Part shown: piece by piece, positions 1,970 to 17,313 of the stretch
Numbering within the stretch: the first letter of the stretch is position 1
How the letters are laid out: the number at the start of each line of letters is the position of its first letter
Origin: Bizionia paragorgiae
Lineage (GTDB): Bacteria; Bacteroidota; Bacteroidia; Flavobacteriales; Flavobacteriaceae
DNA: 64,000 nt
Direction of reading: 5' to 3'
Assembly (NCBI RefSeq): GCF_900107625.1
Contig: NZ_FNQK01000003.1
Coordinates: 124,001-188,000 of the forward strand
Position numbers and translations under genes: made by a program
The notes under the pieces: model-generated
Told to the model about the DNA's origin: nothing
The model's input: only the letters and a program-made list of their open reading frames with translations
Database searches by the model: none

Positions 1970-4069
1970 ATGATAAATTCTAAGCTTTTTGCACTAATTA
2001 CATTGATTTTACTTACAATGTCATCCGCTATAGCTCAAGATCAATCCGCAAGTAATATGGTGGCCGATCTCCAATTAATAAACCCTTCTTCTGAAATTAA
2101 TAATGGGATCGCTAAAGTTAAAGTTCAAGGGGGGCAAGCACCATACAGTTACAAGTGGAGTAATGTTAATACCCCTTTAAGTGAGTCGGAATCCGATGGA
2201 CTAATAGAGGGTATGCAGCATTCCGTGGATATAAGTGATGCAAACGGGAATACAATTAATAAGACGTTTACCATACCCGCAAAATCGATAACGGAGCTAT
2301 TTAATAGTAAAGTACAACCGGCGGTAGATGTTATGGGAGCTGTTTTATTTTGGGATGCCTTTGCAACTTTAGGTATTTATGATCCAGTAGTCTATGCATC
2401 TCATATAAATATTAGTCTCTCAAAAGATAAAACCATAGGGAATGAAGTCTATAACATAAAAAAATGGGTCGTTCCTTATGGAGGACAAGTGAAAAAGGGG
2501 GAGCCTATTGCCGTGTTAAAAAGCACTAAGAACAAAGAAGTGTATGTAAAGGCCTCCCATAGTGGGACTTTAGAGCATGTGGCACAAGAAGGGGGACAAA
2601 TCTCGAAGTTACCAGAAACGGGATCCTTTAAAACTCCGCTATTAGGAATCATTAATTTTCAAACCCCACAACCTTTATTACACCCTAATGGAGATGTTAA
2701 AACCAATACGATTCCATTTATTGTTATTTGGCTTATTCTAGGAAGTATTTTCTTTACCCTACGATTAAAGTTTATCAATATTCGTGGATTTCGACACTCG
2801 TTAGATTTGGCTAGAGGAAAATATGATGATCCGAAAGCGCCTGGAACAATCACTCACTTTCAGGCTATGGCTACAGCTGTGTCCGCTACTGTAGGTTTGG
2901 GGAATATTGCAGGGGTTGCAGTAGCTATTTCACTAGGAGGTGCTGGGGCGACTTTTTGGATGTTTCTTGCAGGATTTTTTGGTATGTCTTTAAAATTTGC
3001 CGAATGTACCTTGGGAGTGAAATATAGATTTATTGATGATGAAGGGCGTATTTTTGGCGGACCCATGAACTATTTACGCTATGGTTTAGAAAAACGAAAT
3101 CTTAAAAGATTAGGTAAGTTTTTGGCCGTTTTATTTGCTGTTTTAGGTGTAGGCGCTTCTTTTGGAGGTGGAAACATGCTGCAATCTAATCAAGCGTTTA
3201 AAATTGTATCAGAGCAAATCCCAGCACTTCAAGGACAGGGCTTTTGGTTTGGTGTAGGCTTTGCCTTGTTGGTCGGGGCAGTAATTATTGGAGGTATCAA
3301 GAGCATTGCCAAGGTAACGGCTAAAGTAGTTCCAATTATGGCAATTTTATATGTCTTAGGCTGCTTGGTGGTAATAGGCTATCATATTGAATATATTGGT
3401 GGTGCCTTTATAGCTATATTAGACGGTGCGTTCTCGGCCGAAGCTTTAAAAGGAGGGTTTATTGGAGTGCTTATTATTGGTTTACAACGTGCTGCATTCT
3501 CTAGTGAAGCAGGGGTTGGTTCGGCAGCCATTGCCCACAGTGCTTCTAAAACCAATCATCCTATTGCCGATGGGTTTACCTCATTGGTCGAACCATTTAT
3601 CGACACCATGCTAGTCTACACGATGACAGCTTTAGTTTTAATTTTTACTGGAAAACACGAAAGTAGTACGGGGTTAGGGGGTGTAGAACTTACTGCCGAT
3701 GCCTTTGGTAGCGTTGTGTCTTGGTTCCCTACAGTATTGGCTGTTGCGGTATTCTTATTCGCTTTTTCAACTATGGTTTCTTGGTCGTATTATGGTATGC
3801 GTTCTTGGAGTTACCTCTTTGGAAGAAGTAAAAAACTGGAACTCGTTTATAAGGTGATGTATTTGGGCTTTGTAGTTCTTGGGGCTTCTGTAAGTTTAGG
3901 TGCCGTATTAAGTTTTGCCGATATGATGATTCTAGCTATGTCGTTTCCAAATATTATAGGTCTTTATATTATGGCGCCAGAAATTAATGCGGATATGAAA
4001 GTGTATTGGAATAAATTAAAAGCCGGTGCCTTATACGTGAACCCGAAATTCCTTAAGGCTGAAAAATGA
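1970..4069 (+). CDS. Alanine/sodium symporter (AGCS family) with extra periplasmic N-terminal domains
   Basis: A 699-residue protein; AGCS transporters are usually 450-550. Residues 1-22 are a signal peptide. Residues about 30-105 look like a SprB/PKD-type extracellular repeat (GGQAPYSYKWSN, SDANGN). Residues about 160-215 look like a biotinyl/lipoyl-type hammerhead (VPYGGQVKKGEPIAVLKS, then VKASHSGTLEHV) but have no lysine in the usual swinging-arm position. The transporter core starts near residue 244 with a membrane helix and carries AGCS segments such as TVGLGNIAGVAVAISLGG, GPMNYLRYGLEKR and RAAFSSEAGVGSAAIAHS. It should import alanine or glycine with sodium. The N-terminal half would lie outside the inner membrane. 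No operon partner is evident. Confidence 0.9.
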   Translation: MINSKLFALITLILLTMSSAIAQDQSASNMVADLQLINPSSEINNGIAKVKVQGGQAPYSYKWSNVNTPLSESESDGLIEGMQHSVDISDANGNTINKTFTIPAKSITELFNSKVQPAVDVMGAVLFWDAFATLGIYDPVVYASHINISLSKDKTIGNEVYNIKKWVVPYGGQVKKGEPIAVLKSTKNKEVYVKASHSGTLEHVAQEGGQISKLPETGSFKTPLLGIINFQTPQPLLHPNGDVKTNTIPFIVIWLILGSIFFTLRLKFINIRGFRHSLDLARGKYDDPKAPGTITHFQAMATAVSATVGLGNIAGVAVAISLGGAGATFWMFLAGFFGMSLKFAECTLGVKYRFIDDEGRIFGGPMNYLRYGLEKRNLKRLGKFLAVLFAVLGVGASFGGGNMLQSNQAFKIVSEQIPALQGQGFWFGVGFALLVGAVIIGGIKSIAKVTAKVVPIMAILYVLGCLVVIGYHIEYIGGAFIAILDGAFSAEALKGGFIGVLIIGLQRAAFSSEAGVGSAAIAHSASKTNHPIADGFTSLVEPFIDTMLVYTMTALVLIFTGKHESSTGLGGVELTADAFGSVVSWFPTVLAVAVFLFAFSTMVSWSYYGMRSWSYLFGRSKKLELVYKVMYLGFVVLGASVSLGAVLSFADMMILAMSFPNIIGLYIMAPEINADMKVYWNKLKAGALYVNPKFLKAEK

Positions 4070-6320: not shown

Positions 6321-6361
6321 GGACTGATGAATATCATTTTAAAAGCTATTTATCAGTCCTA
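6321..6361 (+). repeat. Inverted repeat between the FrnE-like and PPOX-like genes
   Basis: AGGACTGAT at 6321-6329 is repeated in inverted form as ATCAGTCCT at 6353-6361. No T-tract follows, so it may be a transcript-stabilising hairpin or processing site rather than a terminator. Confidence 0.5.
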
Positions 6362-6393
6362 TCTTGTTGCATAATAATTAATTATTTTAAGTT

Positions 6394-6843
6394 ATGCTAG
6401 GTGAATTAAACAATAGACAAATTGAATTTATTTTAGGAAGTGTGATAGTCGGTAGGATTGGCTGTCATGCCAAAGGTAAAACTTATGTGGTTCCCGTAAC
6501 TTATGCTTATGATGGTAAATATATCTATGGTCACACCTCCGAAGGGCTAAAGATCGATATGATGAGAGAGAACCCTGAGGTGTGTTTCCAAGTGGATGTT
6601 ATAGATAATATGAGTAATTGGAGAAGTGTCATTTCTTGGGGGACGTTCGAAGAATTAAAAGGTGTTGAAGAGCGCAAAGAAGCGGTTAAAATTTTGAGAG
6701 ATACAGTCATGCCTGTAATGACAGGGAACACAACCATTAAACACGCAATGAGAGATTCTCATCATCAAGCCAATGAAGCGCTGTCTGGCGTGGTCTATAG
6801 AATTGAATTAACAACTAAAACTGGACGCTACGAAAAAGTATAA
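6394..6843 (+). CDS. Pyridoxamine 5'-phosphate oxidase family, flavin-binding protein
   Basis: A 149-residue split-barrel protein. The start ELNNRQIEFILGSVIVGRIGCH and the strand GKTYVVPVTYAYDGKYIYGHTS are characteristic of small PPOX-like FMN/F420-binding proteins; the segment ENPEVCFQVDVIDNMSNWRSV is the conserved strand pair that follows. Such proteins bind flavin and their substrates are mostly unknown; several are linked to nitroimidazole or redox stress. It closes the redox gene run and lies 186 nt after the FrnE-like gene. Metabolic PdxH is unlikely because the protein is shorter and lacks its C-terminal region. Confidence 0.8.
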   Translation: MLGELNNRQIEFILGSVIVGRIGCHAKGKTYVVPVTYAYDGKYIYGHTSEGLKIDMMRENPEVCFQVDVIDNMSNWRSVISWGTFEELKGVEERKEAVKILRDTVMPVMTGNTTIKHAMRDSHHQANEALSGVVYRIELTTKTGRYEKV

Positions 6844-8292: not shown

Positions 8293-8709
8293 CTAGCTTT
8301 CCTTTTTTAAATCAATACTAAGTTTGGCAAGTAAAATCAACTCTGATTTATTTGTAGAAGCAAAACTGACAGCAATTTTACTTGCTGTTTTTAAAAGTAG
8401 TGCGCGTACGGAATTGGTAAATAAAGTGACATGTTGTTCTTTATAATTTATAAAACGCGTATAACAATCGTCACTATTCCAAACTTTAGAGGTTTGGAGT
8501 TTTTTAAAAGTATCTAATATATAAACGGATTCCTTAGAATTCGATTCATGGATTTCAGCTTCAAAGGGAAGCCAATATTTTTCTACTAAGTTTTTAACAG
8601 CTGTAAGCTCTTCAGTGCGCACCGTATTATCCGACGAAGCTATAGCGTAGTATAATATTCCTATGTGCTCATAGAATTCAAGTCTTTTGTTTTGGTGTGA
8701 AGCTAGCAT
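8293..8709 (-). CDS. TerB-like helical protein
   Basis: A 138-residue, all-helical protein without signal peptide. The first half, with LYYAIASSDNTVRTEELTAVKNLV, resembles the TerB-type fold in which an acidic D..V...E motif binds calcium; the final KIAVSFASTNKSELILLAKLSIDLK helix pair matches the end of that fold. TerB domains occur in stress and envelope systems, but no other ter genes are visible nearby. It is divergently placed to the sensor kinase at 8860, so a link to that system is possible. Assignment is by pattern only. Confidence 0.55.
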   Translation of the reverse strand: MLASHQNKRLEFYEHIGILYYAIASSDNTVRTEELTAVKNLVEKYWLPFEAEIHESNSKESVYILDTFKKLQTSKVWNSDDCYTRFINYKEQHVTLFTNSVRALLLKTASKIAVSFASTNKSELILLAKLSIDLKKES

Positions 8710-8859
8710 CTTAAGGTATTTATAATGTAAAATATCAAAACTACTTTTAAATCGCTATGATATTAATCAGTTAAAACTATTACTATTTAAAGTTAGCGAA
8801 TAGTATTAGGTCATCCCTAACTAAATAATTAAATTTAAAACCTATTAAACCCGGAAGGC

Positions 8860-10740
8860 ATGCTTCATCAGAATAAAAAAATATTTAACATCTTACTTGA
8901 AACGGTTTCCGAAGGGGTAATCATTGTCGATAGTCATCAGAAAATTGTAGAAGTCAATGGCGCCGCCGAAATTATATTTGGGTATCAAAAAAATGAATTA
9001 TTACATAAAGAATTACAGACCATAATCCCTCCCGAATATCATAAAAAACATCAAAACCATTTTAAGGGCTTCATAAAAAGTGAAGTGCGCAGAAGCATGA
9101 AGGAGTCATCAGATATTTATGGCTTAAAGAAAAATGGAAATAAAATTGCTATTGAGGTAGAGCTAAATCCTTTTACTATTGAAGGTAATAACTTTGTCAT
9201 GGCTTTAATAGATGATGTGAGTGAACGTAAAGAAATAGAAAAAAACCTGATGTTAAAAAGTAGTGCTTTGCAATCTGCTAGTAATGGTATTGTTATTACC
9301 GATGCACTACAAGACGATAATCCTATTATTTATTTTAATTCGGCATTCCGAGATTTAACAGGCTATTCCAATGAGGAGATTATTAATAGGAATTGTAGGT
9401 TTTTACAAGGGGAAGATCGCGAGCAAGCGGGAGTGCAAACTTTAAGAAATGCCATTAAAAAAGGAAAGAGCTGCCAAGTGCGATTACGCAATTATAAAAA
9501 GGATGGCACCCTTTTTTGGAATGATATTTATATCATGCCTATTGTTAATGATGAAGGCGTGGTAACGAATTATATAAGTATTCAAAGTGATGTGACCGAA
9601 GAGATAAAATCTGAAGGCCAGCGCCATCATTTGGAACATATTATTAAACAGTCACTCAATGAGATTTATGTTTTTGATGGGATAACCTTAAAGTTTTTAA
9701 ATGTTAATTACGGGGCACAAAAAAACTTAGGGTATACGCTAAAAGAGTTGCAAAATATGACGCCGTTGGATCTTAAAGTATATGATAATGAGCAGGGCTT
9801 TAGGAAGAGAATAGCGTCGTTATTAAATGATGACAGTGAAAAAATAGAATTTGAAACTTTGCACCTTAGAAAAGATGGATCTGTTTATCCTGTCGAGGTG
9901 CACTTGCAGTTATCAAAATTAGGAGGAGAACAGGTTTTTGTGGCTATAGTTTTAGATATTACTGAGCGTAAAAATTATACTGAAAAATTAGAAAAAACGG
10001 TCGAGGAGCGTACCAAGCAATTGGAAGCGGCACTTTCTAAAGAAAAAGAGCTAAACGAACTTAAAACAAAATTTTTGTCCTTAGTCTCACACGAGTTTAA
10101 AACCCCGCTAAGTGGTATTTTAACCTCGTCTATGTTGTTAGGGAAATATAAGCGTACAGAAGATCAAGAAAAGCGTGATAAGCATGTTAAAATTATTGGG
10201 GATAAGGTGCAATACTTAACGACGATTTTAAATGATTTTCTATCTTTAGAACGCTTAGAAACTGGAAGGCTAAATTATCAGTTTTCGCATTTTAAATTAA
10301 GTAAAGTGATAGATGCGGTTATTTACAACGCCAATATGCTATTAAAAGATGGTCAGTTTATAAAGTACCCCGATAATATAGACCATTTATCGTTGTATCA
10401 AGATGAAAAAATACTAGCTGTAGTCTTATCCAACTTAATCAATAACTCCATTTTATATTCAGAACCCCATACGGTAATTAGTATTACCGTACATCAAGAC
10501 GATCAAATAACAACGATAGCGGTTGAAGATCAAAGTATCGGTATTCCATTAGAAGATCAGAAAAATATATTTGAACGCTATTTTAGAGCGCGCAATGTGA
10601 GTACCATTCAAGGTACCGGAATAGGGTTAAATATTGTTAAAAATCATTTGGAAAACCTTGGCGGTACAGTGCGTTTTACTAGCGAAGAAAATGTGGGGAC
10701 AACATTCACTATAACCATTCCAAACAAAGCATCAGAATGA
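8860..10740 (+). CDS. PAS-LOV-PAS sensor histidine kinase, probable blue-light receptor
   Basis: A 626-residue soluble hybrid-less kinase. Domain order: PAS 1 (about 10-125), LOV-type PAS 2 (about 130-250), PAS 3 (about 260-375), a coiled linker, HisKA with phospho-acceptor His411 in SLVSHEFKTP, and a HATPase domain with NLINNS and GTGIGLNIV. PAS 2 carries NRNCRFLQG (176-184) with adduct-forming Cys179, and the flavin-contacting residues of LOV domains: Asn in RNYKKDG, Asn in LFWND, and Gln in SIQSDVTE. This predicts FMN binding and blue-light sensing. The ATP-lid G1 motif reads DQSIGI instead of the usual DxGxGI. It overlaps its response regulator by 4 nt. A GGAAG ribosome site precedes the ATG. 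Confidence 0.92.
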   Translation: MLHQNKKIFNILLETVSEGVIIVDSHQKIVEVNGAAEIIFGYQKNELLHKELQTIIPPEYHKKHQNHFKGFIKSEVRRSMKESSDIYGLKKNGNKIAIEVELNPFTIEGNNFVMALIDDVSERKEIEKNLMLKSSALQSASNGIVITDALQDDNPIIYFNSAFRDLTGYSNEEIINRNCRFLQGEDREQAGVQTLRNAIKKGKSCQVRLRNYKKDGTLFWNDIYIMPIVNDEGVVTNYISIQSDVTEEIKSEGQRHHLEHIIKQSLNEIYVFDGITLKFLNVNYGAQKNLGYTLKELQNMTPLDLKVYDNEQGFRKRIASLLNDDSEKIEFETLHLRKDGSVYPVEVHLQLSKLGGEQVFVAIVLDITERKNYTEKLEKTVEERTKQLEAALSKEKELNELKTKFLSLVSHEFKTPLSGILTSSMLLGKYKRTEDQEKRDKHVKIIGDKVQYLTTILNDFLSLERLETGRLNYQFSHFKLSKVIDAVIYNANMLLKDGQFIKYPDNIDHLSLYQDEKILAVVLSNLINNSILYSEPHTVISITVHQDDQITTIAVEDQSIGIPLEDQKNIFERYFRARNVSTIQGTGIGLNIVKNHLENLGGTVRFTSEENVGTTFTITIPNKASE

Positions 10741-11780
10741 CACGAGTTTTACTTATAGAAGACGATAAAGTGCTGAGAGAAAATACAGCCGAGATTTTAG
10801 AACTAGCCAATTACGAGGTGTCTATGGCGCCCAATGGAGTTGTAGGTTTAGACTATGCAAAAAAGCATTTACCAGATATTATAATCTGTGATATTATGAT
10901 GCCTGAGCTCGATGGTTACGATACGCTTAAAGCGCTTTCTGAAAATGAAAAAACGAAGTACATTCCCTTTATTTTTCTTTCGGCAAAAACAGAAAGAGAA
11001 GATGTTAGAGTAGGTATGAATTTGGGGGCCGACGATTATATTACTAAACCTTTTTCGGAACCCGATCTTATTAACGCTATAGAAAGTCGTATAGCGAAAA
11101 CGTCTATTTTAAGAGAATTAAAACTAGCCGATAAAGAGGAGGATTCAGAACCTATAAAATCGATAAATGATTTAAAAAATATATGTGACGAGGAGGGGGC
11201 TCTTTTTTCATTTAAAAAGGATGAGGTGATATATCGTGAAGGCGAACACTCAAATCATATTTACCTTATTAATAAAGGTGTCGTAAAATGTTACCAGAGC
11301 GACGCGCAAGGTAAAGAGTTAATTACAGCGCTGTATAAAGAAGATGATTTTTTTGGATATAATTCGTTTACAAATAGTGTAGCTCACAAAACGACAGCAG
11401 TGGCTATTGAAGATGTGGAGTTAAGTGGCGTACCTACAAAATATTTTAATCGGTTATTAAGTGAGAACTCTAAACTAGCATTAGAGTTTATTCAGCATAT
11501 GTCCGACAATCTCCTGCTGGCTAATAAACAATTATTAGAGATGGCCTATGGTTCTGTAAATAGAAAAACGGCAAAAACGATTTTAAAATTTGCTGAAAAA
11601 ATAAATAGAAAACCTGAAGACCCTATTAATATCTCGCGTAGCGACTTAGCCAGTGTGGCCGGAATTGCTACCGAAACCTTAATCCGAACCTTGACACGCT
11701 TTAAAAAAGAAGGAGCTATCGCTATCGAAGGTCGGAATATTAGAGTTTTAGATCTCGAAATGTTAAAACGTATGTTTTAA
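10737..11780 (+). CDS. Response regulator fused to a CRP/FNR-type DNA-binding module
   Basis: A 347-residue protein. Receiver domain at 1-125 with acidic pocket EDD (8-10), phospho-acceptor Asp52 in CDIMMPELDG and Lys104 in ITKPF. A cNMP-binding-like barrel follows (about 145-265, with FKKDEVIYREGEHSNHIYLINKG) and then a CRP-type winged helix (about 275-347, recognition helix SRSDLASVAGIATETLIRTL). No cysteine cluster for an FNR iron-sulfur site is present, so control is likely by phosphorylation from the LOV kinase, with which it overlaps by an ATGA. It is placed immediately upstream of six universal stress protein genes, the obvious candidate targets. Confidence 0.92.
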   Translation: MTRVLLIEDDKVLRENTAEILELANYEVSMAPNGVVGLDYAKKHLPDIIICDIMMPELDGYDTLKALSENEKTKYIPFIFLSAKTEREDVRVGMNLGADDYITKPFSEPDLINAIESRIAKTSILRELKLADKEEDSEPIKSINDLKNICDEEGALFSFKKDEVIYREGEHSNHIYLINKGVVKCYQSDAQGKELITALYKEDDFFGYNSFTNSVAHKTTAVAIEDVELSGVPTKYFNRLLSENSKLALEFIQHMSDNLLLANKQLLEMAYGSVNRKTAKTILKFAEKINRKPEDPINISRSDLASVAGIATETLIRTLTRFKKEGAIAIEGRNIRVLDLEMLKRMF

Positions 11781-11866
11781 AACCTGTCGTTCTGTATGGG
11801 GGTGATCAATATCATTTCAAGAGGTTTTATTTACTTGTAAATTAGCCTTTATAAAGATAATGAGCT

Positions 11867-12727
11867 ATGAAAAATATTCTATTACCCACAGATTTTTCCA
11901 AGAATTCATGGAATGCCATAAATTATGCTATTCAGTTTTTTCAAAACCAAAAATGCAACTTTTATATTACGCATATAAATAACGAGAGTGCTGCCATGAC
12001 TAGTGGAATGCCCCCTAATTTAGATAATAAGGATAGGGATGCTATACAACTTAAACATTCAGAGCTTAAAATGCGTGAACTTATAGAGCGCATTGAAAAC
12101 CTGCCTTTAAATCGTAAAAGACATAATTTTTATACCCTGTTAGAAAAAAGTCCGTTTATTGATGGTATACGTAAAATTATAGACCAGAAGGAGATTGATT
12201 TTATTGTTATGGGTACCAAAGGGGCTTCTAGTTTAGAGAAAATTATATTAGGGAGTAATACCGCCGATGTACTTACTAAAGTAAAATGTAACACTCTAGT
12301 TATACCAGAAAATGCGACGTATATAAGACCTAAGGAAATTGCCTTGCCTACCGATTTTACCTTGTCTCATAATTTACATATTCTAGACCCTCTATCTGAG
12401 ATTTTAGAAGAATTTAATTCCGCGTTACGCATCTTACATATAAGTAAGTACAAAGAAGACCTCAATAAAGATCAAATTCAAAATAGAGAATTGCTTGATG
12501 AGTATTTTCATCAACAACAACATAGTTTTCACTATTCTACAGAGAGTAAGGTAGAAATAGGGATTCAAAATTTTGTAGAAAATAGGTCTATAAACATGAT
12601 ATGTATGGTGGCGAAAAATATTAATTACTTCCAGAAAATATTGTTTCATTCCAAGGTTGGTAGTATTAGTTATCATACCGATATTCCGTTTTTGGTTATT
12701 CATGAAAAGAAAGAAAGCCACGAGTAA
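11867..12727 (+). CDS. Universal stress protein, tandem UspA domains (paralog 1 of 6)
   Basis: A 286-residue protein made of two Usp domains. The first begins KNILLPTDFSKNSWNAINYA and has the complete nucleotide-binding motif G-2x-G-9x-G-S as GTKGASSLEKIILGS near residue 117. The second begins KEIALPTDFT near residue 160 but lacks the glycine motif, so it probably serves dimerisation. Usp proteins bind ATP and support survival under stress or growth arrest. First of six tandem paralogs, 86 nt after the response regulator. A strong terminator follows it, so copies 2-6 are probably transcribed mainly from another promoter. Confidence 0.92.
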   Translation: MKNILLPTDFSKNSWNAINYAIQFFQNQKCNFYITHINNESAAMTSGMPPNLDNKDRDAIQLKHSELKMRELIERIENLPLNRKRHNFYTLLEKSPFIDGIRKIIDQKEIDFIVMGTKGASSLEKIILGSNTADVLTKVKCNTLVIPENATYIRPKEIALPTDFTLSHNLHILDPLSEILEEFNSALRILHISKYKEDLNKDQIQNRELLDEYFHQQQHSFHYSTESKVEIGIQNFVENRSINMICMVAKNINYFQKILFHSKVGSISYHTDIPFLVIHEKKESHE

Positions 12728-12733
12728 TAATCA

Positions 12734-12748
12734 TGTGGCTTTGCCACA
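12734..12748 (+). repeat. Small hairpin after the first usp gene
   Basis: TGTGGC at 12734-12739 pairs with GCCACA at 12743-12748 around a 3-nt loop, just after the stop codon and ahead of a stronger terminator; probably a 3'-end stabilising structure. Confidence 0.4.
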
Positions 12749-12767
12749 ACTAAATTATTCGGTTTTA

Positions 12768-12813
12768 ATAAAAAACGTTTGCTTCAAAATCTTTTGAAAC
12801 AAACGTTTTTTAT
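12768..12813 (+). terminator. Strong Rho-independent terminator between usp 1 and usp 2
   Basis: A near-perfect hairpin of about 21 bp: ATAAAAAACGTTTG at 12768-12781 pairs with CAAACGTTTTTTAT at 12800-12813, with TTCAAAA/TTTTGAA inside. The T-run is part of the stem, so it can work in both directions. It separates usp 1 from the other five copies. Confidence 0.8.
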
Positions 12814-12893
12814 TTCCTTGTTGAGGATGACATATATCATAGGTTTTAAATTTCGATGTCCGTATTTTTATATATCATAAAAAACACATTACT

Positions 12894-13742
12894 ATGTTAT
12901 CGATACTTTTGCCAACCGATTTTTCTGCGAACGCAATGAATGCCATTAAGTACGCTTTGGATTTCTTTAAAAATCAAGAGGTACAATTCTATTTTTTAAA
13001 CACATATAGAAATGAGTTTTACGATCATAAAGATTTAGTTACTCGTAAGGATTTTGATGCGGTTTTAAACACCGTAAAATCTCAATCTCAGAACAATCTG
13101 GAGTGTTTGTTAAAAGAGATTAATGAAAACGAATCAAACCCTAAACATAGGTACCATATTATCTCGGCTTTTAACACACTTCTTGAGGAAGCTAATGAAA
13201 TAGTAGATAGTAAAAATATAGATTTAATTGTGATGGGAACTCAAGGCAAGTCTAACGAGCGGCATATTGTATTTGGTAGCCAGGCTTTTCAGGTTTTAAA
13301 ATATGTGCAATGCCCTGTGTTAATTATTCCTTCGGCATATACTAATACAGCACCAAAACGCATTTTATTTCCAACCAACTATTTAATACCTTATAAACAA
13401 CGAGAGTTAGAATTAGTATCAACCCTAGCGAGGAGGAATAGAAGTGAAATAGACGTGGTCTATATTTCTACTGTAAAAAAACTGTCGCTAAGACAAGAGG
13501 ATAATCAGGAGGTTATTAAGGAGGCTTTAGTACATAATACGGTCGATTTTAGCATAAAAAATGGCAAAAACATCACGGAAAGTATCGCTAGTCATATACA
13601 GGAGAATAACATAGATCTTTTGGTGATGGTGAATACCCAATATTCGTTTTTAGAAGATATTCTATTTCCTTCTAAATTAGATGAAATAAGTTTAGGGTTA
13701 GAAATACCGCTTTTAGCGTTACAAAATACTTCAAGGAAATAA
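12894..13742 (+). CDS. Universal stress protein, tandem UspA domains (paralog 2 of 6)
   Basis: A 282-residue double-Usp protein starting LSILLPTDFSANAMNAIKYA. The ATP motif in the first half is GTQGKSNERHIVFGS (near residue 118). The second half starts KRILFPTNYL and has no glycine motif; the catalytic-type Asp of PTDF is Asn here (PTNY), a further sign of decay in that half. It is the first gene after the terminator at 12768-12813 and begins a run of five closely spaced copies (gaps of 19-64 nt), which looks like one transcript. Confidence 0.9.
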   Translation: MLSILLPTDFSANAMNAIKYALDFFKNQEVQFYFLNTYRNEFYDHKDLVTRKDFDAVLNTVKSQSQNNLECLLKEINENESNPKHRYHIISAFNTLLEEANEIVDSKNIDLIVMGTQGKSNERHIVFGSQAFQVLKYVQCPVLIIPSAYTNTAPKRILFPTNYLIPYKQRELELVSTLARRNRSEIDVVYISTVKKLSLRQEDNQEVIKEALVHNTVDFSIKNGKNITESIASHIQENNIDLLVMVNTQYSFLEDILFPSKLDEISLGLEIPLLALQNTSRK

Positions 13743-13761
13743 TTAATAAACAGATAAGGTT

Positions 13762-14607
13762 ATGAAACATATACTTTTACCAACCGATTTTTCAGATAAT
13801 TCGTGGAATGCTATTACATATGCTATCTCACTTTTTAAAGAAGAGGTCTGTACATTTTATTTCCTTAACACGTATACACCTGTAGTTTATAGAGTAGATT
13901 CTATAATGGGGTCAACGTCTCAATTAGGATTAGCAGATGCTTTAAGGCAAACCTCTTTAAATGGACTGAACCAAATTAATGATAAACTATCAGAAACCTT
14001 TGGGGCTAACCCTAAGCATGCATATAAAATGCTGTCTAGATTTAATTATCTCGTTTCTGGAATTAAAGAATTTCTAAGTAAAAACGAAACCGATCTTGTT
14101 GTTATGGGAACTCAAGGAGCAACTGGGGCAAAGGAGGTTTTATTTGGATCTAATACAGTGCAAGTATTTAATGATATTAAATGTCCAGTAATGGCTATTC
14201 CTGAAGGTTGTGAATATGAAAAACCATTAGAGATTCTTTTTCCTACAGATCTACAAGTCGATTTTAACAGTTTTCAATTGGATATTTTAAAACATATAGC
14301 GTCGACAAACCAATCTAAAGTTCACGGTCTTCACGTTTCTATGGGGGCTGAATTGACAAGGCAACAAAAGGAGAATAAAGCAGAACTAGAAACTCAGTTT
14401 AGCGATACGACCTTTGTATTTCATCATTATAAAAGTATGCTGGTAACTGCGGCTATAGATAAGTTTCAAACGAGTGCCAAATTAAATGTATTGGCTATGA
14501 TAAATAATAAAAGATCCTTTTTTGAAAATATTTTTTTCAAATCAACAATAAATCAATTAGGGTTTCATATCCATTTACCTTTTTTAGTTATACCTGCTAA
14601 AGGCTAA
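13762..14607 (+). CDS. Universal stress protein, tandem UspA domains (paralog 3 of 6)
   Basis: A 281-residue double-Usp protein starting KHILLPTDFSDNSWNAITYA. The nucleotide motif GTQGATGAKEVLFGS is intact in the first half. The second half starts LEILFPTDLQ and ends with ENIFFKSTINQLGFHIHLPFLVIP, the conserved C-terminal strand of this subfamily, without a glycine motif. Only 19 nt separate it from paralog 2. Likely cytoplasmic. Confidence 0.9.
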   Translation: MKHILLPTDFSDNSWNAITYAISLFKEEVCTFYFLNTYTPVVYRVDSIMGSTSQLGLADALRQTSLNGLNQINDKLSETFGANPKHAYKMLSRFNYLVSGIKEFLSKNETDLVVMGTQGATGAKEVLFGSNTVQVFNDIKCPVMAIPEGCEYEKPLEILFPTDLQVDFNSFQLDILKHIASTNQSKVHGLHVSMGAELTRQQKENKAELETQFSDTTFVFHHYKSMLVTAAIDKFQTSAKLNVLAMINNKRSFFENIFFKSTINQLGFHIHLPFLVIPAKG

Positions 14608-14662
14608 TTCTGGTTTAAATTAGATTGTATAACACATCAGATATCAATAAAAAACAAATCAA

Positions 14663-15499
14663 ATGAGAAAAAATATATTACTACCAACAGATTTTTCTGA
14701 TAACGCTTGGAGTGCAGCGCAATATGCTTTTAAATTGTATGAGCATGTAGATTGTACATTTTACTTTTTACACTCTTCAAACCTTCCTGTTGTAGCGATG
14801 CAAAACGTGTCTAATAAATTAGGACGTATCGTGGGCGAGAATACTAAGAAAGAGCTTATGGCATTGAGCAGACTGGCCAAGGAAACGAATGCGAATCCTA
14901 AACATGAATTTAAAACAATCCTTAGTATCGACGATTTACATGAGGCCCTAGAAACTTATATCTCTAGAATGAATGTAGATTTAATTATTATGGGGACTAA
15001 AGGGGCGACGAATGCTCAAGAACGCTTTTTTGGAAGCAATACAGTGAATATTATTCAAAAAATTAAAAGCTGTCCGGTGTTAGCTATTCCAGATAATTAC
15101 AAGTTTGCCGTTCCTAAAGAAATTGCTTTTCCAACCGATTTTAATCGTGTTTATGGCGATGAGTTACAGCCATTAAAAGAGCTGGCTAGTTTGTATGATT
15201 CTAATATTGAAATTGTTCACCTTAACAAAACGGATGATATTACAGAACTCCAAGACCAGAATTTAGACGGACTTAAAGAGGCGCTTAAAGACTTTGTTTG
15301 CAGTTTACACTGGGTGCCAGAATACAACACTAAAAACCAAGGGATAAAAGATTTTTTGGAGCATAACAAGACTGATATTTTGGTAATGATTAATTATAAG
15401 CAAGGGATTATTGAAAGACTTATTAAAGAACCCGTGATTAAAAACATTGGAATTCATCCTATCATTCCATTTTTAGTGATACCGAGTCAAGGCAAATAA
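14663..15499 (+). CDS. Universal stress protein, tandem UspA domains (paralog 4 of 6)
   Basis: A 278-residue double-Usp protein starting KNILLPTDFSDNAWSAAQYA, with GTKGATNAQERFFGS in the first half. The second half starts KEIAFPTDFNRVYGDELQPL and is closely similar to the matching part of paralog 5 (PTDFNRMYGEEIEPI), including a shared ending IIPFLVIP. Paralogs 4 and 5 therefore look like the most recent duplicates of the array. It lies 55 nt after paralog 3. Confidence 0.9.
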   Translation: MRKNILLPTDFSDNAWSAAQYAFKLYEHVDCTFYFLHSSNLPVVAMQNVSNKLGRIVGENTKKELMALSRLAKETNANPKHEFKTILSIDDLHEALETYISRMNVDLIIMGTKGATNAQERFFGSNTVNIIQKIKSCPVLAIPDNYKFAVPKEIAFPTDFNRVYGDELQPLKELASLYDSNIEIVHLNKTDDITELQDQNLDGLKEALKDFVCSLHWVPEYNTKNQGIKDFLEHNKTDILVMINYKQGIIERLIKEPVIKNIGIHPIIPFLVIPSQGK

Positions 15500-15557
15500 G
15501 AATTGAAGCGGAGTAACCTCCTCTTAAATTAAAATTTTTAGATTTAAATAGAACAGA

Positions 15558-16394
15558 ATGAGACATCATATTTTACTACCTACAGATTTTTCAGATAATG
15601 CGATGAGCGCTGCGCTTTACGCAATTAATTTATACAAAAACGAATCGTGTACCTTTTACTTTTTACACGCATGGTCGTTTTCAAACTCTAGTACAAGAAC
15701 TTATATTAGCTCGACTTATATCGATAAATTAGAGACTGCCGCGAAACAACAGTTGGTAGAGCTGCAAGAGCAATACCAGAAAGATAGTGGTAATGCAGAT
15801 CATAATTTTGAGATTATTTTTAGTACTGAACCGCTTGTTAAAACCATTGAAGAGGCGGTTAAAGCATACCCTGTTAATTTTATTGTAATGGGTACTAATG
15901 GGGCGTCAGGGGCTAGTAAGTTTTTATTTGGAAGTAATGCTGTTGGTGTTATTAATAAAATTAAAAGCTGTCCTATTTTGGTTATTCCATCCGATTATAA
16001 GTTTGTTAAGACCGATCGGATTGCTTTTCCTACCGATTTTAATAGAATGTATGGTGAAGAAATAGAGCCAATAAAACAGTTTGCAAAACTGCATAACGCT
16101 AAAATTAGTGTGTTCCATATTAGTAAAGGCGATGACCTATCGGAGAAACAAGATAACAATTTAGCACTGCTAAAATCGAGTCTAGAAAATTTTGAACACA
16201 GTTTTCATTGGATGTCAGATTCAGGAAGTAAAGAGAGTGCGATAAAAGATTTTATACTGGACTACGATATTAATCTTCTGGTAATGATAAATTATGAACA
16301 CAGCTTTGTAGAGCGCATAACTAGAGAGCCTATTGTGAAAAATATAGGATTTCATCCTATAATACCGTTCTTAGTAGTGCCGTGTATTAACTAA
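15558..16394 (+). CDS. Universal stress protein, tandem UspA domains (paralog 5 of 6)
   Basis: A 278-residue double-Usp protein starting HHILLPTDFSDNAMSAALYA, with the ATP motif GTNGASGASKFLFGS. Its second half (DRIAFPTDFNRMYGEEIEPI, final REPIVKNIGFHPIIPFLVVP) is nearly the same as in paralog 4, which marks a recent duplication. The spacing to paralog 4 is 58 nt. Expected to bind ATP through the N-terminal half only. Confidence 0.9.
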   Translation: MRHHILLPTDFSDNAMSAALYAINLYKNESCTFYFLHAWSFSNSSTRTYISSTYIDKLETAAKQQLVELQEQYQKDSGNADHNFEIIFSTEPLVKTIEEAVKAYPVNFIVMGTNGASGASKFLFGSNAVGVINKIKSCPILVIPSDYKFVKTDRIAFPTDFNRMYGEEIEPIKQFAKLHNAKISVFHISKGDDLSEKQDNNLALLKSSLENFEHSFHWMSDSGSKESAIKDFILDYDINLLVMINYEHSFVERITREPIVKNIGFHPIIPFLVVPCIN

Positions 16395-16458
16395 GTAATA
16401 CAGGTTATAGCCTATTTAGAAGCTATCACAGTAACCATACACTTAAAAAAACAGACCG

Positions 16459-17313
16459 ATGAGACATAAAATTTTATTGCCTACAGACTTTTCTAAAAAC
16501 TCTATTCAGGCTATTAATTACGCTAGAGAGTTATATAAAAATGACCACTGTGATTTTTATGTTCTTAATGCATTTTCGCCTCCTTTAGGTGTGTTTTCTA
16601 GTTTAATGCAATCAAAACCGGGAGATGAATTGTATGAGGCTGCTAAATTAGATTCTGAAAATGGTTTGGCTAAAGTTTTTGATGTTATAACTCTGAATGA
16701 TAATTTTAATTCAAAACACAGCTTTGAAGTCGTTTCGAGTTATAACACAGTGGTAGATGCTATCAATACTGTTGTGGCCGAAAAGGATATTGAAATGGTT
16801 GTGATGGGAACAAAAGGCGAAACAAATGCAGTGTATGAGCCGTTTGGAAGTGCCGCTGTTAACGTGATGGAAAAAGTGCGGCATTGTCCTGTAATCGTGG
16901 TTCCAAATAGTGCAAAATTAGAAATGCCAAAAGAAATTGTTTTTCCTACCAGTTATAAATCCCACTACAAAAGAAGAGAGCTTGTTTATTTAACTAGAAT
17001 AGCTCTAGCTTGTAACTCTACTATTGCCGTGTTGCACGTTTTAAAGCAAGAGGGTTTAGATAAAGGGCAGGAAGATAATAAGGAGTTGCTTCAGGAGATT
17101 TTAAAAGGTACGGACTACAGATTTCATAATATAGTGAATGATTCCGTAATGAGTACAGTAAGTGTTTTTGTTCAAAGCAGGTCTAGTGGAATGGTGGCGT
17201 TTATAAATAAAAAGCATACCTTTTTTAGTAGCATGCTTACAAACCCTATGGTGAAACAAATATCATTTCATTTAGATGTTCCTATTTTGGCATTGCATGA
17301 TTTAAGAAATTAA
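16459..17313 (+). CDS. Universal stress protein, tandem UspA domains (paralog 6 of 6)
   Basis: A 284-residue double-Usp protein starting HKILLPTDFSKNSIQAINYA, with ATP motif GTKGETNAVYEPFGS. In its second half the PTDF signature is changed to PTSY (KEIVFPTSYKSHYKRRELVY), resembling paralog 2 (PTNYLIPYKQRELEL); the two share this branch-specific RREL element. It ends the array; a hairpin with a T-run at 17362-17395 follows. Confidence 0.9.
   Translation: MRHKILLPTDFSKNSIQAINYARELYKNDHCDFYVLNAFSPPLGVFSSLMQSKPGDELYEAAKLDSENGLAKVFDVITLNDNFNSKHSFEVVSSYNTVVDAINTVVAEKDIEMVVMGTKGETNAVYEPFGSAAVNVMEKVRHCPVIVVPNSAKLEMPKEIVFPTSYKSHYKRRELVYLTRIALACNSTIAVLHVLKQEGLDKGQEDNKELLQEILKGTDYRFHNIVNDSVMSTVSVFVQSRSSGMVAFINKKHTFFSSMLTNPMVKQISFHLDVPILALHDLRN

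Follow-up and report, generated by a model that had tools for sequence, protein, structure and literature searches.

The stretch of Bizionia paragorgiae DNA analysed here (64,000 nucleotides; called the window, whose coordinates are used throughout) carries at 8860-17313 eight co-directional genes on the + strand, encoding a histidine kinase with a LOV-type second PAS domain, a receiver-CRP fusion regulator (REC-CRP) and six universal stress proteins (Usp). We consider it reasonably likely that this block represents, in a local and light-capable form, a hypoxia/dormancy module of flavobacteria with a FixL-FixK-like design, into whose kinase a LOV domain has been inserted. Judged from sequence comparisons, the locus probably did not originate as a light switch; it looks like a hypoxia-type stress module to which light was added. 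Light appears as an added rather than a founding input because LOV is absent from 67 of the 88 kinases classified at this locus, because the sensor that the kinases share is a PAS domain of the FixL/DosP type, and because the promoter box and its targets resemble those of a low-oxygen regulon. An earlier note on this DNA had described the LOV-type kinase, the overlapping receiver-CRP fusion and six Usp genes in the same direction, all of which hold. It had further proposed that light controls the Usp output; the sequence gives good support for a canonical LOV domain within a two-component locus that adjoins Usp genes, which keeps part of that proposal alive, but light as the controlling input gives way on the three grounds just listed. 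In this flavobacterium, probably a marine one, a single switch may answer both to light and to oxygen or redox state. The features are as follows:

8293-8709, - strand: divergent 138-aa protein with a homologue in 49 of 92 REC-CRP loci; shares the intergenic FNR-type box
8758-8769: FNR-type palindrome TGATATTAATCA between the divergent gene and the kinase gene
8860-10740, + strand: histidine kinase PAS1-LOV-PAS3-HisKA-HATPase, 626 aa
8860-9240, + strand: PAS1, a FixL/DosP-type PAS; His64 kept, Ser at the O2-binding Arg position 84
9241-9624, + strand: LOV domain; Cys179 codon at 9394-9396; N211, N221, Q242
9625-10014, + strand: PAS3
10060-10740, + strand: HisKA (His411) and HATPase_c
10737-11780, + strand: REC-CRP regulator, 347 aa; receiver (Asp52, Lys104), cNMP-type domain, Crp HTH (Glu313, Arg317)
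11803-11844, + strand: usp1 promoter box TGATCAATATCA, with TAAATTA at +35; 1 mismatch to the pattern
11867-12727, + strand: usp1; Usp (Pfam), ATP motif
12767-12814, + strand: hairpin between usp1 and usp2, likely a terminator; -19.4 kcal/mol, z -6.7
12828-12869, + strand: usp2 promoter box TGACATATATCA, with TATTTTT at +35; a perfect copy
12894-13742, + strand: usp2; Usp (Pfam), ATP motif
13762-14607, + strand: usp3; Usp (Pfam), ATP motif
14663-15499, + strand: usp4; Usp (Pfam), ATP motif
15558-16394, + strand: usp5; Usp (Pfam), ATP motif
16459-17313, + strand: usp6; Usp (Pfam), ATP motif
6325-6843, + strand: possible further target, a Pyridox_ox_2 gene (6394-6843) with a 1-mismatch box at 6325-6366

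The second PAS domain of the kinase is almost certainly a LOV domain. It carries NRNCRFLQG, conforming to the G/NxNCRFLQ signature with residue 179 as the adduct Cys, and in the alignment the flavin-contact positions are filled by N211, N221 and Q242, which we take to be flavin-contacting from their known roles in LOV domains. The best match among solved structures is the LOV domain 7r5n (4e-33), and this match together with the full signature speaks against a chance LOV-like motif, a reading that was rejected. N178, F181, L182, Q183, N221 and Q242 are invariant across 19 aligned kinases, and 164 distinct sequences match the domain at E ≤0.001 (the best 60 of 164 displayed). The domain is a predicted flavin binder. 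The earlier note had suggested structure prediction as a check. In an AlphaFold2 model of the kinase built on 19 aligned kinases (mean predicted local distance difference test (pLDDT) score 80, predicted template-modelling score (pTM) 0.36), residues 141-250 reach a pLDDT of 85 to 92 per block of ten. Among its Foldseek matches a WalK model ranks first, ahead of Brucella LOV-HK (6ph4) and then SB2F1, YF1, NifL and DosP. The whole-chain TM-scores of 0.20 to 0.34 by query are low, which a model of several domains would lead one to expect. Within its own 3.14-Mb genome the kinase LOV domain is the sole LOV match. The genome also has one BLUF domain in an open frame of 142 aa (L140, G000:C36:20216-20479) and one photolyase-family domain; a rhodopsin search gave no match, but its control was equally silent, so absence is not shown.

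The reading frame of the regulator shares 4 bases with that of the kinase (10737-10740). Pfam assigns Response_reg, cNMP_binding and HTH_Crp_2 to the regulator, and PAS families (up to three stretches), HisKA and HATPase_c to the kinase. Receiver residues Asp52 and Lys104 are present in 100% of 94 REC-CRP proteins, as is Arg317 of the recognition helix, while Glu313 is found in 98%; phosphotransfer from the kinase to REC-CRP and binding of the box by REC-CRP are predicted.

Full-length REC-CRP homologues occur in 9 of the 40 genomes searched, own genome included. For the locus comparison, 92 loci were assembled from the best 80 of 553 GTDB relatives and 12 stretches from further relatives, a sample biased to close kin. 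The genera named among them are Winogradskyella, Psychroserpens, Algibacter, Maribacter, Aequorivita, Lutibacter and others, which we take to be flavobacteria. In 84 of the 92 loci at least one Usp gene, and up to eight, lies downstream on the same strand with a gap below 2.5 kb. Three pairs of REC-CRP proteins are identical (L039/L109, L087/L106 and L089/L092), L032 and L041 are deep paralogues, and L042 has no full-length REC-CRP and a very long branch.

Ninety kinases were taken from these loci, and the 88 longer than 300 aa were classified: 58 have PAS1 without PAS3 or LOV, 9 have PAS1-PAS3, and 21 contain LOV. The N-terminal PAS1 is common to 86 of the 88. On the REC-CRP tree the presence of LOV needs 6 changes, a count that does not tell gain from loss, and LOV sits in five places: a Winogradskyella-type group of 17, Aureibaculum, Gillisia, L079 and the deep paralogues L032/L041. 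The Winogradskyella-type group (support 88, not starred) includes two LOV-less members (L046, L047) and a Cys-less one (L049).

The shared sensor resembles the heme-binding PAS domains of FixL and DosP. As a single sequence, PAS1 of the window kinase matches the solved structures of DosP at 1.2e-10 and FixL at 5.2e-7; with a 42-row profile these values become 2.8e-22 and 1.6e-20, against just 2.5e-11 for the best LOV chain, and the profile also matches the PAS domain of an uncharacterised histidine kinase, 10jx, at 4e-16. A survey of PAS domains places FixL and DosP in one cluster, where this His is taken as the mark of heme binding and is kept in 60% of the sequences (PMC10468136). Over the heme pocket PAS1 aligns with FixL/DosP without gaps: His64 coincides with the heme His, and column 84 with the O2-binding Arg, which is Arg97 in DosP; the DosP R97A chain 9bgv differs from 9cdr, within the displayed stretch, solely at this position. 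The Arg stabilises bound O2 in FixL and DosP (PMC4263535). The heme-proximal His64 is kept in the window kinase and in 76 of the 86 kinases aligned for PAS1 (E <1e-15; L032 and L042 dropped), and PAS1 is a candidate heme-binding domain. Since the O2-stabilising Arg is Ser84 in the window kinase, we class its PAS1 as FixL-like and not as a FixL O2 sensor.

Across the family, Arg stands at column 84 in 2 of 20 LOV kinases versus 49 of 66 non-LOV kinases (Fisher 3.3e-7, with rows that are kin). His and Arg occur together in 40 of 57 PAS1-only and 8 of 9 PAS1-PAS3 kinases (48 of 66 non-LOV kinases) and in 2 of 20 LOV kinases. A kinship-aware test over 6 independent pairs gave means of 0.0 pairs the same way, 3.3 opposite and 2.6 equal. 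We do not regard the gain of LOV and the loss of Arg as demonstrably linked, as the Fisher value rests on kin and the pair test is not significant. In 77 of 87 kinases the Asp of the last PAS domain lies 45, 73 or 80 positions before the phospho-His, each of these distances being 3 modulo 7; three PAS1-PAS3 kinases gave 167 (122 + 45, the PAS3 Asp having been missed) and lie outside the 77. Equal linker register is consistent with one signalling register whichever sensor sits above, and the polarity of the kinase response is not derivable from linker lengths alone.

The second pillar of the proposed module is its promoter. The palindrome TGAYN4RTCA is found in 158 of 301 usp upstreams and in 60 of 94 upstreams of kinase-like open reading frames (ORFs), versus 108 of 787 upstreams of control ORFs; every matching ORF on either strand went into the usp and kinase groups, and the controls are mechanical ORFs. 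At usp sites with room, TANNTTT stands exactly 35 bases from the box start in 99 of 125 cases, and the 26 other offsets tried gave 12 matches in total. We take TANNTTTG to be the Bacteroidetes -7 element; provided that this element lies at its usual place, the box would be centred at about -41.5, a class II position. At least one such usp promoter exists in 65 of 84 loci, with LOV (14 of 18) and without it (49 of 62). The full pattern has 10 strict sites in the own genome and the reversed pattern 0. If the targets described below form one regulon, box, 23 bases and TANNTTT define a sharp promoter signature for low-oxygen control in flavobacteria.

Pfam finds Usp (PF00582) in 6 of 6 genes of the block, and the ATP-binding motif G-2x-G-9x-G-S occurs once per protein, in the first domain, in all six. 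A recognisable promoter box precedes only usp1 and usp2, and the upstreams of usp3 to usp6 hold no box at up to 2 mismatches. The hairpin at 12767-12814 is absent from the list of a simple terminator scan and was seen by its folding energy (z -6.7). Because boxes stand only at usp1 and usp2 and the hairpin separates these two genes, the block probably forms at least three transcription units: kinase-regulator, usp1 and usp2-6. A sigma-70 promoter reading of the block was uninformative (50 matches versus 43.9 in shuffles).

Eight of the ten strict sites in the own genome precede named genes. They are nirK, encoding copper nitrite reductase (TIGR02376, 1.8e-109, above cut-off); fhs (formate-tetrahydrofolate ligase) and pta (phosphate acetyltransferase), both named by eye; ccoS-ccoN of a cbb3 cluster adjoining an FNR-like gene, also named by eye; a cytochrome c lipoprotein gene (by eye); a CBS protein gene; and two usp genes, one of them usp2 of the window. 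One of the remaining sites precedes an uncharacterised 136-aa protein, the other no clear gene. In two relatives with full-length REC-CRP (G013 and G020), the box also precedes genes for PfkB, HPF (of the ribosome-hibernation family S30AE), DnaJ, thioredoxin, a P-type ATPase for cations, and Pyridox_ox_2 and M50-CBS proteins. The HPF, M50-CBS and P-type ATPase genes resemble targets of DosR. From this set the own genome shows Usp and CBS genes, plus the 1-mismatch box before the Pyridox_ox_2 gene, whose protein has a weak likeness to NimABCDEF 5-nitroimidazole reductases (34 bits versus a cut-off of 260). A hemN-like ORF, found with a query protein that is hemN above cut-off, occurs in 10 of 92 REC-CRP loci (such locus counts, including that of the divergent gene, are BLAST matches at 1e-4 anywhere in the stretch).

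Strict sites crowd around REC-CRP: 19 of 37 in G013, 10 of 24 in G020 and 11 of 27 in G009 lie within 30 kb of it. This count was made by hand for three of the nine genomes that have full-length REC-CRP, and in G013 two sites on another contig are identical in sequence to two of those counted. In G001, with 4 of 14, and in the own genome, with 2 of 10, the crowding is less marked. Of the 26 sites in five REC-CRP neighbourhoods, 11 stand ahead of a Usp gene. Among the targets of FixK are cco and hemN (PMC4999443). Under microoxic conditions the response of Bradyrhizobium involves Usp, cbb3, DnaJ, phosphofructokinase and CBS proteins (PMC6515984), and low oxygen raises both the lxa locus of Burkholderia cenocepacia, with six Usp and a phosphofructokinase, and the DosR regulon, with ten Usp (PMC6127331). 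By this comparison the box and its co-targets recall a low-oxygen regulon resembling lxa/DosR.

Several further observations concern the surroundings. The divergent 138-aa protein (8293-8709) has no match in Pfam or NCBIfam and likely belongs to the module. In the relatives, the Usp block is often followed by genes for an ATP-cone/Mrr-like protein and for a beta-CASP RNA-processing metallo-hydrolase (e.g., L055:14816-17041), each of which has homologues in 35 of the 92 loci. They possibly serve RNA turnover in dormancy; in the window neither gene was seen next to the Usp block. A perfect box with a -7 element at 1355-1396 of the window has no obvious gene at the usual distance, and about 570 bases beyond it lies a gene for a sodium:alanine symporter-family protein with a biotin/lipoyl-like stretch (1970-4069).

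We hypothesize the following mechanism. In the ancestral state, a kinase with a FixL/DosP-type PAS would phosphorylate a receiver-CRP/FNR activator, a FixJ-FixK relay in one protein. Phosphorylation at Asp52 would let REC-CRP activate the usp1 and usp2 promoters, binding TGAYN4RTCA near -41.5 and turning on Usp and, in relatives, other survival genes. In a Winogradskyella-like lineage, LOV would have come to separate PAS1 from the kinase core with the coiled-coil register preserved, and PAS1 would in most cases have lost its O2-stabilising Arg. Blue light, acting via the Cys179-flavin adduct, and possibly flavin redox state too, would then feed the same Usp output. Oxygen switches FixL off (PMC4999443); because O2 inactivates FixL, light and oxygen would act alike here if the register is kept, so that light and O2 are expected to turn the output off and darkness with hypoxia to yield the most Usp. 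A bolder version, possible though doubtful, is a sensor swap in which the inserted LOV took over the oxygen input in several lineages, darkness triggers DosR-like dormancy, and the Cys-less kinases L079 and L049 went back to flavin redox; if true, darkness would give early warning that oxygen is about to run out in algal mats and sediments.

A number of observations weigh against the hypoxia module with added light. PAS1 of the window kinase may no longer sense oxygen, because Ser84 replaces the Arg and because the heme His is missing in 5 of 20 LOV kinases, and the sign test over the 6 independent pairs for LOV and Arg was not significant. With a pTM of 0.36, the single domains of the kinase model are reliable but their arrangement is not. 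The boxes of kinase genes are less regular, with a -7 element at +35 or +36 in 10 of 38, and that of the window kinase has no -7 element on the + strand: the full pattern at 8728-8769 lies on the - strand with 1 mismatch, so the -7 element is on the side of the divergent gene only. The 12-base box alone is weak evidence within the window (7 matches versus 3.2 expected), and the reversed control pattern is not silent in G004 (7 versus 6 real sites) and G021 (6 versus 20). Finally, the box is not specific to REC-CRP, and the Usp genes could answer mainly to FNR, since a separate FNR shares the recognition residues and boxes are abundant without full-length REC-CRP.

This last point leads to a rival explanation that we rate as improbable, namely that the separate FNR-like protein of the own genome (L133:4749-5444) controls Usp, and the kinase-regulator pair controls something else or itself. 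It has the same Glu/Arg pair in a similar helix as REC-CRP, and 20 to 25 boxes occur in genomes without full-length REC-CRP (G005, G007, G019 and G021); the many boxes of G019 and G005 rule out a box used by REC-CRP only. However, in these two genomes Usp stands behind 1 of 39 box-led genes versus the 11 of 26 near REC-CRP, a comparison that is not like for like, as it sets whole genomes against REC-CRP neighbourhoods rich in Usp (the own genome gives 2 of 10). The sites (20 of 25 in G019 and 20 of 24 in G005) were picked by eye, mostly as boxes followed by T; one G005 site was counted twice, and 3 of 42 matches have no ORF. Boxes also crowd around REC-CRP, though in G020 a CRP/FNR-type gene lies 37 kb away, and Usp synteny with REC-CRP holds in the 84 of 92 loci noted above. 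The likeliest arrangement is that two regulators share one box and that, of the two, REC-CRP is linked to the Usp blocks. A comparable case has been proposed in Caulobacterales, where FixK would have taken over FnrN sites (PMC4999443).

The hypoxia module with added light is compatible with another, rather unlikely, reading, in which LOV is chiefly a flavin redox sensor and its Cys photochemistry is incidental. Two kinases at the same locus naturally lack the Cys: L079 (LOV at 8496-8879) has Leu in its place with the other flavin contacts kept, and L049 (8505-8888) has Ile, with N211 also changed to Ser. LOV proteins that lack the Cys, among them a variant of YF1, are able to signal via flavin reduction (PMC4682037). 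These two facts make flavin redox sensing a live alternative, and a redox input fits the regulon. On the other hand, the Cys is kept in 19 of 21 LOV kinases, which suggests selection for it; the redox input that the earlier note had allowed for finds some support in the two Cys-less forms.

A dedicated blue-light stress switch, with LOV light as the main input and Usp protecting against photo-oxidative stress, would suit the intact LOV signature, the retained Cys and the absence of the O2-binding Arg in 18 of 20 LOV kinases, but we think it unlikely, given the LOV-less majority at the locus, the LOV-less members L046 and L047 within the Winogradskyella clade, the boxes and co-targets, which resemble those of a low-oxygen regulon, and the lack of a photolyase, carotenoid or oxidative-stress gene among the eight named strict-box genes of the own genome (by eye).

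If the FixL-FixK-like module with an inserted LOV is the correct reading, it provides a concrete, testable output for the LOV kinases of marine Bacteroidetes. Non-LOV, LOV and Cys-less LOV forms acting on one output would make light, oxygen and flavin redox inputs directly comparable.

Searches of the literature outside subscription papers listed no work on a LOV kinase that occurs together with REC-CRP and Usp in Bacteroidetes; related designs are known. Like rhizobial FixL-FixJ-FixK, the system pairs a heme-type PAS kinase with a two-component relay to a CRP/FNR-type activator. It differs in that a single protein holds both the receiver and the CRP domains, the kinase also has LOV and a third PAS, the promoters use the Bacteroidetes -7 element, and the window kinase lacks the O2-binding Arg. 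Halobacterial Bat and Rhodobacter AppA are not known to be histidine kinases and differ in domains and targets. They are similar in combining light with oxygen or redox sensing (PMC4682037, PMC4844311). The lxa locus and the Mycobacterium DosR regulon likewise hold Usp genes, there together with phosphofructokinase and raised in low oxygen, but have other regulators, and the available text of the source mentions no photoreceptor domain (PMC6127331); in Burkholderia dolosa, FixK is under FixLJ (PMC6127331). Brucella LOV-HK and Caulobacter LovK are likewise natural LOV histidine kinases, but the Brucella 6ph4 construct is, by its title, LOV-PAS-HK, without an N-terminal heme-type PAS. The partners and outputs of both differ from those of the window system. 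LovK has been linked to light and redox (PMC4844311). A further parallel is offered by YF1 and SB2F1 (PDB 4gcz, 8a52), in which LOV drives a FixL-type kinase and which are among the ten best Foldseek matches. They are man-made, whereas the window kinase keeps its FixL-like PAS and has a PAS domain between LOV and kinase; if our reading is true, it would be a natural counterpart of the engineered LOV-FixL kinase YF1.

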